A stretch of 49,668 bases of DNA, taken from positions 62,317-111,984 of the forward strand of contig JACRLJ010000066.1 of assembly GCA_016215105.1 (NCBI GenBank), given 5' to 3'. Each line of letters begins with the position of its first letter. Position 1 is the stretch's first letter. The position numbers were made by a program, and so were the translations under genes. Origin of the DNA: Candidatus Hydrogenedentota bacterium. GTDB taxonomy: Bacteria > Hydrogenedentota > Hydrogenedentia > Hydrogenedentales > SLHB01. The notes below the pieces were generated by a model. The model was given only the letters and a program-made list of their open reading frames with translations, ran no database searches and had not been told where the DNA came from. Below are positions 9,588 through 49,668 of the stretch, one piece after another.

Positions 9588-9616
9588 TTGACAATTATCG
9601 TGATCCGTGCTAGCCT
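9588..9616 (+). promoter_or_regulatory. Strong sigma-70 promoter of the PEP-CTERM gene
   Basis: TTGACA (9588–9593), a 17-base spacer and TAGCCT (9611–9616). The same arrangement (TTGACA, 17 bases, TAGTCT) lies at 46083–46111 ahead of the other large surface-protein gene, and both are followed by the same leader motif. Confidence 0.75.
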
Positions 9617-9644
9617 GAATTCGGTTTACAGGGTCGCAGGGCAA

Positions 9645-9716
9645 AGGTTTCTACTAGAGAACAAAGGCCTGCGCAGGAAAGCGTGTCTTTCCTTGCGCGG
9701 GCCTTTCTGTTTTTCG
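9645..9716 (+). promoter_or_regulatory. Conserved leader with terminator-like hairpin
   Basis: AGGTTT (9645–9650), then GAGAACAAAGGCCTGC (9657–9672) leads into a stem of about 19 bp: 9663–9681 pairs with 9687–9706, with one bulge and one wobble. CTGTTTTT follows. The hairpin plus U-tract looks like an intrinsic terminator lying between the promoter and the coding start at 9782, which suggests attenuation or a leader-RNA switch. The 46149–46195 leader shares the motif and the fold. Confidence 0.6.
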
Positions 9717-9781
9717 CGGGGTCGAAGCAGTACATGACGGGTGTGAACAGTTCGGGCGGACACAAAGAAAAGGAGACAACG

Positions 9782-10870
9782 ATGAGACGGGTTGCACTGA
9801 CACTAATGATGGGGGCCTGCACATTCCTACTACTTGGGGGGAATGCATGGGCCGATTTCCAAAGCGGAGGGGACCACTTGGTGGACTACCAGAATCCCGA
9901 CGGGGGGTGGAGCTGGGAGCACGGCACGTTACCACCTGTGACACCATCCGGGGGTAGCCCCGCAAATACGATGGGGCCCATCGGCCTTGGACTGTTAAAT
10001 GCGTATAGCCATACGACCGACGCCACTCACCTACAGGCGGCGGTAGATGGGGCCAACTACGCGATCGCGACAACGTATCCGAATTTGGAAGCTAGATTCG
10101 GCACATCTGATCCGTATTTCTTTCTCAGATTGTCGGCTGTGACCGGCGACACGACGTACGCGAATAATGCCGCGACTGAGTTTTTTGACGCTCTGAGCGC
10201 TGGCACGTATGGCCCTTCCAACTTGAACACAGCAGGCTGGATCTCATCGGTCCAAGCAGGTCGTACCGGTCTCTGGGTCAACTTGCGACCCTGGGAGTTT
10301 TCGACAATCGCTTACACCGCGGGCCAAATCGGCAACGCGGGGCAGCAAACCGATTTTGAGAACGCGATCATCGCCGGACTAGGCACCCTCGACAGCGCCG
10401 CGTATTACGACTACCTCGGGCTCGCCGGGGGCCTTTACGGTTTGGCATTGGACGGGACCAACATCGGCTCCACAAGTGTAGGTGACTTTGGCACCGTCGC
10501 CGATACGACAGCGTTGGCGGCTCTCCTTGCAGGCGCACAGAATGCCGATGGTTCATGGAACTGGAACTCCGGCTTGGGCGCGGGTAACGAGGATACGCAG
10601 GTTACTGCCTACGCTACTTTGGCGCTCCTCGCGGCCGACGCGGCTGGATTCGGAAACTGGGATTCGCAGATTTCCCAGGCGCGGAATTGGCTCTGGTCGA
10701 TGCAGCAGCCATCCGGCGGATTCCTGTCGTATCCCGGCGGAACCGAGAATCACGAAGTGGAAGGCGAGGCGCTTCAAGCAGTGCCAGAGCCTATGACCAT
10801 GATGATGCTCGGCTGTATCGGCGCTGGTATGGCCGCCGCGCGCAAGCTTCGCCGCAAGAACAAGGCGTAA
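9782..10870 (+). CDS. PEP-CTERM exported protein with alpha/alpha-toroid (cyclase-like) fold
   Basis: A 362-residue protein from ATG 9782 behind AAAGGAGA. It has a signal peptide (MRRVALTLMMGACTFLLLGG, cleavage after about NAWA). The body has QW-like repeats with aromatic/Gly motifs (YQNPDGGWSW, AQNADGSWNW, MQQPSGGFLSYPGG), as in the alpha/alpha barrels of prenyltransferase/squalene cyclase-like proteins. The class II cyclase DxDD motif is not visible, so enzymatic activity is doubtful. The C-terminus is a PEP-CTERM sorting tail: VPEP, a hydrophobic stretch and RKLRRKNKA. Exosortase should therefore process it and it is probably surface- or EPS-associated. No exosortase gene is in this window. 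It is followed by a strong terminator at 10988. Confidence 0.85.
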   Translation: MRRVALTLMMGACTFLLLGGNAWADFQSGGDHLVDYQNPDGGWSWEHGTLPPVTPSGGSPANTMGPIGLGLLNAYSHTTDATHLQAAVDGANYAIATTYPNLEARFGTSDPYFFLRLSAVTGDTTYANNAATEFFDALSAGTYGPSNLNTAGWISSVQAGRTGLWVNLRPWEFSTIAYTAGQIGNAGQQTDFENAIIAGLGTLDSAAYYDYLGLAGGLYGLALDGTNIGSTSVGDFGTVADTTALAALLAGAQNADGSWNWNSGLGAGNEDTQVTAYATLALLAADAAGFGNWDSQISQARNWLWSMQQPSGGFLSYPGGTENHEVEGEALQAVPEPMTMMMLGCIGAGMAAARKLRRKNKA

Positions 10871-46082: not shown

Positions 46083-46111
46083 TTGACAGGTGGGAGCGAT
46101 TGGGTTAGTCT
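46083..46111 (+). promoter_or_regulatory. Strong sigma-70 promoter of the surface-protein gene
   Basis: TTGACA (46083–46088), a 17-base spacer and TAGTCT (46106–46111), the same build as 9588–9616. Confidence 0.75.
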
Positions 46112-46134
46112 GACACCTCGCCAAGGCATAGGTT

Positions 46135-46195
46135 GAGGTTTGAGAACTAAGGCCTGCACGAACGGGACCGCTCTTTCGTGCGGGCTTTTCGTTTT
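46135..46195 (+). promoter_or_regulatory. Conserved leader with terminator-like hairpin, second copy
   Basis: AGGTTT followed by GAGAACTAAGGCCTGC (46142–46157), the same words as at 9645–9672. Stem 46149–46162 pairs with 46175–46188 (two wobbles), loop 12 bases, then CGTTTTC. It lies between the promoter and the ATG at 46293. Confidence 0.6.
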
Positions 46196-46292: not shown

Positions 46293-46694
46293 ATGGGCAG
46301 ATGGCTTACCAGATCAACGAATTCGCTGCTCCCATTCATCGCGATTCTTGTTTCGACTCTTATCCCTGGCGTTTCGCACGCGACGATTTCCCAGGACTGG
46401 GCGATTCGGGCGAGCGCGGTGGTTCAGGAGTCCCCGGCGCGGATTACGTTGAACTGGCCCGCCTCGACAGGCACGGGATCGATCTACGTCTACCGTAAGC
46501 TGGATACGGATACTACCTGGGCGGCGTTCCTGGCCACGTTGGCGAGCACCGCGACGCAGTATGTGGACACGACGGTGTCGGTGGGGACTGCCTACGAATA
46601 CCTGCTGTTTCAATCTGACGCGACGATCACCTCGGGGCGTCGAGGCTACGTGTACTCGGGAATGAAGATTCCCTTGGTGGAAAGCCGGGGATAG
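46293..46694 (+). CDS. N-terminal part of the C25-like surface protein, ending at an in-frame TAG
   Basis: 133 codons from ATG 46293, with GGAG eight bases upstream. The signal peptide includes LLPFIAILVSTLIPGVSHA. An FN3-like domain follows (RITLNWPASTGTGSIYVYRK … AYEYLLFQSD) and the reading ends VESRG-TAG at 46692–46694. The same frame continues without a break as IVLIVGNTFSSALSSE, which is the start of the next domain. The TAG therefore looks like a nonsense change within one long gene, not a natural end. Confidence 0.65.
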   Translation: MGRWLTRSTNSLLPFIAILVSTLIPGVSHATISQDWAIRASAVVQESPARITLNWPASTGTGSIYVYRKLDTDTTWAAFLATLASTATQYVDTTVSVGTAYEYLLFQSDATITSGRRGYVYSGMKIPLVESRG

Positions 46695-49668
46695 ATAGTT
46701 CTGATCGTGGGCAACACCTTCAGTTCGGCTTTGTCCTCGGAATTGGCCCTCCTTCAACAAGATCTCGTAGGTGACGGCTGGACCGTCTTGCGTCACGACG
46801 TAAACCGGTCAGACTCGGTTCCAAGCGTCAAGTCGCTGATTCTGGCGGACTACACCGCGGACCCGGCGAACATCAAGGCGGTGTTTTTGTTCGGTCATGT
46901 GCCAGTACCGTACTCCGGCAACTTGAATCCCGACGGCCATCCGGATCACCAGGGCGCCTGGCCTGCTGACGTGTTCTACGGCGAGATGAACGGGACCTGG
47001 ACGGACACGACGGTGAACACAACCACGGCCACGGACCCTCGCAATCGAAATATCCCCGGAGACGGCAAATACGACCAGTCCACAATTCCCACAGCCGTAG
47101 AACTTTGGGTGGGTCGTGTAGACTTGGCGAATATGCCGGCGTTTCCGTTGAGCGAACTGCAACTCTTGCGGCAATACCTCAACAAGGACCATGACTTCCG
47201 CCAGAAGACAACAACCGTTCAATCCCGGGCGCTGGTTTCAGACAACTTTACAGGTTTGGTGGAAGGCCCCGCGCAAACCGGATGGCGATTCTCGGCTTTG
47301 GCCGGGGCGGCCAGCGTGTCGGCGGGCAGTTGGTCCACCTTGACGTCGAACGATTACCTCTTGGCCTACGGTTGCGGAGCGGGAACCTACACCAGCGCAG
47401 GCGGAATCGCAAGCACGGCCAATTACGCGTCGAGCACGTATCGCGCGATGTTTCAAATGCTGTTTGGGAGCTACTTCGGTGACTGGGACAACTCGAATAA
47501 CTTTCTGCGGGCGCCGCTGTGCAACCGAACGTATGGGCTGACCTCGTGTTGGGTGGCGCGTCCGCATTGGTTCATTCATCACATGGGTCTGGGGAAACCC
47601 ATTGGTCACGGGATGCGTTTGTCCACCACGAGCTCGTTGTATTACATGAGCTACTCGGCAAGCCAAGCGCATATCGCGTTGATGGGCGACCCCACGCTTC
47701 GCCTTCAGTATGTGCTGCCGCCAACTGGGGTTTCCGCGATTCCTTCCGGGAGCAATGCAAGCATATCCTGGACGGCGTCGGCGGACACCGGCATTTTGGG
47801 ATACAACATTTACCGGTCTACGTTGGCCGACGGTCCTTTCACTAGACTCAACGGCGGCCCGCTCGTCGCGGGCACAACGTACTCAGACACCTCCCCGTTG
47901 GGAGGCGGCGCCACGTACATGATTCGCGCGGTGCGTCTGGAACAATCGTCGTCGGGGACGTACTACAACGCCAGCCAGGGGGCGTTCGCGTCGTACACGC
48001 CTTCCGCAACACCTCCTCCGGCGCCAGTGATCACGACCGACGGAGGCAACGGGGCGGGCGTGGACTACACCACCAACAACGCCTCACTGACGTTGGCGGG
48101 AACTTGCGACAGCAGTCTGGTCTCGATTCAAGTAAACGGCTCGACTACCGGAGTGACTTACACCGCGGGCCAGACAACGTGGTCCTATTCGGGCACATTA
48201 TCCGCGGGGGCGAATCTGTTCAGCGTTACCGGCACGGACGCGCAACCGCTGACCTCCAGCGCGGACACCATAACGATCAACTTGGATACCACGGCGCCGA
48301 CCGTGAGCATGAGTTCTGTTGCGTCGTCGCCGACGAATGCCAGCCCTATTCCGGTGACGGTCACATTTAGCGAGAGCGTGACCGGCTTCACGGCGGCGGA
48401 CATCAGCGCAAGCAACGCCACGGTGAGCGGCTTCTCCGGTTCGGGATCGAGCTACAGCTTCAACCTCACTCCAACTGGCCAAGGCCTGGTTACCGCCGAT
48501 ATCGCGGCTGGAATGTGCATGGACGTGGCCGGAAATGGCAATACCGCCGCGGCGCAGTTCTCGCGGACGTACGACTCGCTGGCGCCCACGGTGAGCATGA
48601 GTTCAGCGACGGCGTCTACCACGAACTCCAACCCCATTCCCGTGACGGTAACGTTCAGCGAGAGCGTAATGGGGTTTGCGTCGGGGGACATCACCTCAAT
48701 CAACGCGACGGTGAGTGGCTTCTCCGGCTCAGGTTCGAGCTACAGCTTCAATCTGACTCCGACCGGCCAGGGTGTGGTTACGGCGAACATCGCGGCCGGA
48801 GTGTGCGTGGACGCAGCCGGAAACAGTAACACCGCCGCGGCGCAGTTCTCCCGGAGCTATGACTCGGCGGCGCCGACCGTAACCATGGCTTCCGGAACTC
48901 CGTCGATTACGAACTCCAACCCGATTCCCGTGACAGTTTCGTTCAGCGAGAGCGTGACCGGCTTCACGTCAGGGGACATCAGCGCGAGCAACGCGACCGT
49001 GACCGGTTTCGCCGGCTCAGGTTCGAGCTACAGCTTCAGCCTGACCCCAAGCGGCCAAGGCGCCGTTACGGCCAACATCGCGGGTGGGGTATGTGTGGAC
49101 CCGGCGGGAAACGGCAACACCGCCGCTGCGCAGTTTTCACGCACCTTCGATTCAGTAGTACCCACGGTGAGTATGAGTTCCGCAACGTCCTCTCCGACGA
49201 ACACCAGCCCTATCCCGGTAACCGTGACGTTCAGCGAGTCCGTGACGGGCTTTACCTCGGGAGACATCAACACGAGCAACGCGACGGTGACAGGGTTTAC
49301 GGGCTCGGGCTCAAGTTACAGCTTCAATCTGACTCCGAGCGGCCAGGGTGTAGTTACGGCGGACATCGGCGGGGGGCTTAGTATAGACGCCGCCGGCAAT
49401 GGCAACGGCGCTGCGCCCCAATTCTCCCGGACGTACGATTCGGTGGCGCCGACGGTAAGCATGGCTTCGGCAATATCGTCTCCGACGAACACCAGCCCTA
49501 TCCCGGTTACGGTGACGTTCAGCGAAAGCGTGACAGGTTTCACTTCAGCGGACATTATCGCGTCGAATGCCACGGTGAGCGGTTTTGCGGGCTCCGGCGC
49601 AGGCTATAGCTTTGACTTGACGTCGAGCGGCCAAGGCGTGGTTACCGCGGACATCCCGGCCGGGGTGT
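46695..49668 (+). pseudogene. C25-like / FN3 / Big_12 surface protein, main part (stop-interrupted, C-terminus outside window)
   Basis: The frame stays open from 46695 to the window edge (991 codons). It begins with a Rossmann-like domain related in layout to gingipain-type (C25) peptidases: AVFLFGHVPVPYSGNLNPDG, LLAYGCGAGTYTSAGG (Cys candidate), FGSYFGDWD, SLYYMSYSASQAHIALMGDPT. The His/Cys pair cannot be assigned firmly, so peptidase activity is uncertain. An FN3-like domain follows (NASISWTASADTGILGYNIYR), then an Ig-like linker and at least five Big_12-type repeats of exactly 96 residues. It is exported and probably anchored on the surface; any sorting tail is outside. Whether the upstream TAG is read through, real or an error is open. 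Confidence 0.65.
48300..49668 (+). repeat. 288-bp tandem repeats encoding Big_12-type Ig domains
   Basis: Units start at 48300, 48588, 48876, 49164 and 49452 (the last cut by the window), each exactly 288 bp. Conserved codons give SPIPVTVTFSESVTGF, GSGSSYSFNLTP, GQGVVTA and DAAGNGNTAAAQFSR. Confidence 0.88.

Follow-up and report, generated by a model that had tools for sequence, protein, structure and literature searches.

The window, as we call the whole stretch of 49,668 nt analysed here from a Candidatus Hydrogenedentota bacterium, carries an exported PEP-CTERM gene and a Big_12-repeat surface-protein gene, each preceded by a leader of the same plan (Table 1). Leader 1 occupies positions 9588–9716, as read directly from the sequence, and leader 2 lies in the upstream DNA of the second gene, at 46083–46195. 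The GAGAACNAAGGCCTGC motif has two exact matches in the window, one in each leader, and no others. The original prediction had placed leader 1 here and described a TTGACA-17-TAG(C/T)CT promoter and a stem-loop with a U-tract before the start codon. Both leaders bear this out, with TAGCCT in leader 1, TAGTCT in leader 2 and a 17-nt spacing in each. AGGTTT, proposed as a further common element, stands only in part: in each leader a conserved GUU precedes AAC by 10 nt, but the AGGTTT picked in leader 2 is non-homologous. With the register corrected, the homologous GUU of leader 2 is at 46132–46134, within an upstream AGGTT.

Table 1. The two leaders of the window and the genes that follow them.
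Feature	Position	Strand	Basis
Leader 1 promoter TTGACA-17-TAGCCT, sigma-70-type	9588..9616	+	Sequence; 17-nt spacing in 9/10 complete copies
Leader 1 core, candidate antiterminator hairpin GGC-AAAG-GUU-N10-AAC-AAAG-GCC	9640..9669	+	Six pairs kept in 10/10 copies; predicted MFE hairpin −5.1 kcal/mol
Leader 1 intrinsic terminator stem-loop; 5' arm AAAGGCC overlaps core	9663..9706	+	Covarying stem; about −30 kcal/mol
Leader 1 U-rich tract CTGTTTTTC, 3' of stem	9707..9715	+	Sequence
Exported PEP-CTERM gene, tail sub-type VPEPMTMMMLGCIGAGM; RBS AAGGAG at 9770	9782..10870	+	Follows leader 1
Leader 2 promoter TTGACA-17-TAGTCT	46083..46111	+	Sequence
Leader 2 core, candidate antiterminator GGC-AUAG-GUU-N10-AAC-UAAG-GCC	46125..46154	+	Copy alignment, pair check
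Leader 2 intrinsic terminator stem-loop, then CGTTTTC	46148..46189	+	Covariation, folding energy, sequence
Big_12-repeat surface-protein gene, continues beyond window end	46293..49668	+	Pfam; in-frame TAG 46692-46694

The gene behind leader 2 had been called 'C25-like', a label without support, as its Pfam matches are Big_12 repeats alone. We notice that the reading frame reopens directly after the in-frame TAG of this gene (ESRG*IVLIVGN), which may be a nonsense mutation, recoding or a sequence error. A paralog on contig C68, located just 3' of a leader-bearing PEP-CTERM gene, has one uninterrupted frame. The last frame of the surface protein, past the window end (L164:4878-7532, G000:C103), shows a hydrophobic-basic, sorting-like tail, LPLSGLPIAAALLLAALVALRRKAPFV, for which the NCBIfam tail models gave nothing above cut-off.

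Leader family and the genes behind it

Piecewise searches of the genome revealed ten complete leader copies and one broken by an N-run. Five copies fit the motif of the original prediction with no more than one mismatch; at two mismatches, two additional true copies stood amid many chance matches. A covariance model built from these seven copies retrieved three more (C24:62141, C27:1546 and C27:12896, all on the minus strand). With the model refined on ten copies, every complete copy has an E-value of 7.7e-15 or better (range 1e-14 to 1e-21), and a fixed-core pattern has eight matches in the genome against none with a reversed control.

The copies share one order of elements: promoter, spacer, core of about 30 nt, long intrinsic terminator, U-rich tail, RBS and start codon. 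The promoter is TTGAC[A/G/C] with a weak −10 (mostly TAGNCT), and the gap is 17 nt in nine of the ten complete copies; the promoter of copy L051 differs from those of the other nine. In the complete copies, the distance from the −10 to the core is 12–32 nt and the core loop has 8–10 nt.

The eleventh leader, 5' of the gene at C149:19057, reads TTGACA-17-TACAAT ... GGGCAAAGGTTTGAATC-N10-CGGGCCTTGCTTTTT, the N-run taking up its middle. It was found via a separate sorting-tail search, so that the gene predicted the leader and the leader was not used for finding the gene. The ten-N run falls exactly within the leader hairpin (L209, G000:C149; PEP-CTERM gene ending ~3143) and may mark a break in the assembly at the terminator.

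In every copy, a promoter and a terminator enclose a short unit built to the same plan, which would also suit an independent trans-acting small-RNA gene (promoter, ~90 nt, terminator) spread with surface genes by chance. However, all 11 copies are in sense orientation directly before a gene, with the RBS 3' of the terminator, and we regard such a small-RNA gene as very unlikely.

TIGR02595 gave 20 PEP-CTERM matches in the genome. Reading their tails splits the genes into sub-type A and others that mostly carry the common LLGxGxAGxxxRR. The sub-type A tail, VPEPxxMxMLGCxGAGM(L/A)xARK, occurs in eight genes, one of them missed by TIGR02595. When scored with a model built on seven tails, these reach 64–76 bits and the non-A tails at most 37 bits. 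A leader stands directly ahead of seven of the eight sub-type-A genes and of none of the 11 other PEP-CTERM genes (p = 1.6e-4), the dubious-looking TIGR02595 matches on C170 and C57 being excluded and the C141 gene being truncated at its contig end, with its upstream DNA beyond the contig. The eighth sub-type-A gene, C68:8407, is the next gene on the same strand 3' of a leader-bearing gene; counting this operon, all eight sub-type-A units have a leader versus 0/11 of the others (p = 1.3e-5).

In total, eleven genes or operons use the leader, all sub-type-A PEP-CTERM genes included. The remaining units are headed by the gene for the Big_12 surface protein (46293), by an HDOD gene with a GAF-PAS histidine kinase gene behind it, and by genes for a TPR protein and for a ~68-aa small protein. 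The two C68 leaders lie ~6 kb from an EPS operon encoding Wzz, a tyrosine-kinase-like ATPase, an exosortase, DUF3485 (EpsI-like), a sugar transferase and a Wzy-like protein, and the C15 copy is ~6 kb from an XrtH-like exosortase. We also observed that the EpsH exosortase gene of the C68 operon is split across two frames (L171:12395-13229, G000:C68), either by assembly error or by a real frameshift. On C27, a leader is followed by two small look-alike ORFs, MPYLIWKIDTATG... and AYMIWRVANSTKR... (L089:8740-9892, G000:C27), the second of which has no Pfam match.

The original prediction had read the shared leader as common regulation of surface-protein genes. The seven copies directly before PEP-CTERM genes and the one before the Big_12 gene agree with this idea, from which we infer regulation; on the other hand, three copies precede non-surface genes, a single PEP-CTERM sub-type is covered, and no copy was found in relatives. 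This reading is supported as it was put forward, in a form that did not include the antiterminator/terminator switch discussed below.

Outside this genome, the few extra matches to the core pattern, allowing three mismatches, in 68 genomes of the phylum (one order) do not exceed the reversed control. Nor was the sub-type-A tail found in any of the 67 further phylum genomes, the next best tail scoring 37 bits. Covariance models R1 (60 genomes) and R2 (25 genomes) gave only weak matches in relatives; read individually, these proved to be ordinary terminators, a tRNA plus terminator and probable T-box-type metG/leuA leaders. The metG and leuA leaders of relative G016 (L103, L119) have GGGCCTGGTC in common and a terminator/antiterminator alternative, and are probably of the T-box type. 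In relatives, the PEP-CTERM genes that were read end in the common tail and lack a leader of this kind. Two scans of GTDB r220 contigs recovered no true copy, the first being empty and the second giving two unrelated chance matches, and a scan of IMG/VR found no leader copy. Rfam gave no match at gathering in the window, and in seven copies none on the leader at E≤1. As the compared genomes are all outside the genus, the leader may occur throughout the genus or in this genome alone.

The lack of copies in relatives would also fit leaders that were merely copied with duplicated gene cassettes, their conservation reflecting recent ancestry and no regulation; L045 and L047, for instance, are alike beyond the terminator and have near-identical tails. 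We consider this extremely unlikely, since the core has stayed fixed despite divergence of the spacer, the loop, the downstream genes and the greater part of the terminator stem.

Terminator stem and candidate core hairpin

A promoter followed by a stable stem-loop with a U-tract before the RBS is the general layout of an attenuator, and the leader has this layout. The terminator comprises ~16 or more pairs, always 5' of the RBS, with a predicted energy of −24 to −33 kcal/mol across copies. Double changes occur in 10 of its 16 pairs, and the observed score was reached by none of 500 shuffles. Together with GUU/AAC, 96% of the cells are paired, and shifting the alignment by one column almost halves the stem pairing. 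The terminator stem covaries and is therefore conserved as RNA. The original prediction had named as its test many copies ahead of PEP-CTERM or exported genes with covarying stems, which is what the ten complete copies and the interrupted one display.

The foot of the terminator behaves differently from the rest of the stem. In columns 31–35, which contain GCC, double changes are found in 0/50 cells, compared with 25/110 in columns 36–46 (p = 4e-5), although ordinary terminators of relatives often have AAGGCC-type feet as well. This contrast suggests that the foot is held by something besides the terminator.

The same GCC is the 3' side of the core, whose consensus is GGC-AWAG-GUU-N8-10-AAC-WAAG-GCC. 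A hairpin pairing GGC with GCC and GUU with AAC is the RNAfold minimum in nine of ten copies. Its six pairs are held in 60/60 cells, where the sole two changes, both in L054, lead to G-U wobbles. Because the core pairs are nearly invariant, they are consistent with the fold and do not amount to covariation proof. Since the core hairpin and the terminator both use GCC, they would be mutually exclusive. On its own, the core hairpin has a predicted −3.5 to −8 kcal/mol, weak relative to the terminator, and would therefore need an outside stabiliser; the searches for ANTAR, CAT_RBD and NusG-paralog proteins yielded no candidate for one. In several copies, AGAAC can pair alternatively with the GUUUU of the tail, lengthening the terminator; L053 (AGAAC) and L054 (AGGAC) have no GUUUU tail partner and keep the GUU partner.

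Six nearly invariant symmetric positions resemble a protein site, and the dyad is identical in DNA and RNA. On this view, the core would act as an operator in the DNA: a repressor or roadblock would bind the inverted repeat GGC-N4-GTT-N10-AAC-N4-GCC immediately 3' of the promoter, and the terminator would be a separate, incidental brake. We find this unlikely. Promoter distance and centre length vary, as is more readily expected of an RNA than of a DNA operator with fixed phasing. Furthermore, the N4 segments of the half-sites differ (AWAG versus CTTW) and are each conserved separately, unlike those of a symmetric operator, and the right half is always the terminator foot.

Proposed switch and known systems

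Based on these features, we propose that the leader is probably a cis-acting 5' transcription attenuator of the terminator/antiterminator type. RNA polymerase would start at the sigma-70-type promoter and transcribe the core. By default, the AAGGCC at the core 3' end would pair downstream into the strong intrinsic terminator, stopping transcription before the RBS. Alternatively, GGC would pair with that same GCC, and GUU with AAC, forming the weak hairpin around a purine-rich 4x4 internal loop. When a factor or ligand stabilises this hairpin, the terminator could not fully form and the gene would be expressed. One signal may then jointly switch on the sub-type-A PEP-CTERM proteins, the Big_12 surface protein and the HDOD/histidine-kinase operon. 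The anatomy common to the copies, the covariation in the terminator, the exact overlap of the two possible structures and the set of genes served are observed; termination at the stem-loop, formation of the alternative hairpin and its regulation are inferred.

The primary sequence AGGUU-N8-AGAAC is strongly conserved among copies, which would also suit a processive antitermination factor or small RNA that recognises the core in single-stranded form or as paused RNA/DNA, without an antiterminator hairpin. Terminators before surface genes, and C68 copies near an exosortase/EPS operon, recall the logic of LoaP/RfaH. Leaders of these NusG paralogs likewise have a small hairpin and then an intrinsic terminator (PMC12691694). 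However, the units here are short and mostly single-gene, and the genome (95% complete) has no NusG paralog of the LoaP/RfaH kind, its sole NusG being the housekeeping copy beside secE and rplK/rplA. Such hairpin-free recognition appears improbable.

The proposed attenuator resembles the RAT-terminator leaders of BglG/LicT, in which an interrupted-stem hairpin lies just 5' of an intrinsic terminator and overlaps it, the two structures being mutually exclusive (PMC3369936). The core has one symmetric 4x4 internal loop, whereas RAT has two asymmetric ones, and the genes are surface genes here and serve sugar catabolism in BglG/LicT. The core sequence is presumably also unlike that of RAT. The ANTAR leaders of EutV, NasR and AmiR (PMC3369936) are similar in that one terminator-leader type serves scattered units and the antiterminator overlaps the terminator foot; a histidine kinase among the leader-bearing genes here adds to the likeness. 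In contrast to ANTAR leaders, this leader lacks the P1/P2 double hairpin with A1/G4 loops, and no conserved second hairpin was found in the copies. The genome has no match over cut-off for a CAT_RBD protein (PF03123) or an ANTAR protein (PF03861). As these defining proteins are absent, the leader falls outside both systems, and it is best read as one that would work like RAT and ANTAR leaders while belonging to neither.

Tentatively, the core could be a new RNA sensor of ~30 nt, either a compact aptamer of the riboswitch kind or a site bound by an RNA-binding protein that is still undescribed. The antiterminator might then co-regulate one dedicated exosortase sorting class, with the sorting signal and the mRNA leader as a matched pair; we hold this as a possibility of low probability.

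In Proteobacteria, a motif upstream of PEP-CTERM genes is associated with sigma-54 and PrsK/PrsR/PrsT; the study describing it found it only there and noted that other genes and genomes must use elements still undiscovered (Haft 2006, PMC1569441). Like that motif, the leader is one cis element that precedes many of a genome's PEP-CTERM genes and has a few extra targets. It differs in having a sigma-70-type promoter and a transcribed terminator leader, and in being confined to one tail sub-type. No −24(GG)/−12(GC) sigma-54 site was found in the leader promoters, which read as the TTGACA-17-TAGNCT type. The leader would fill the role of the proteobacterial sigma-54 site by other means.

As a short RNA, the leader is amenable to testing. 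It is a candidate RNA-level shared cis element for PEP-CTERM genes that tracks one sorting-signal sub-type, and it suggests that, where several exosortases coexist in one organism, a single cargo class can be switched en bloc.
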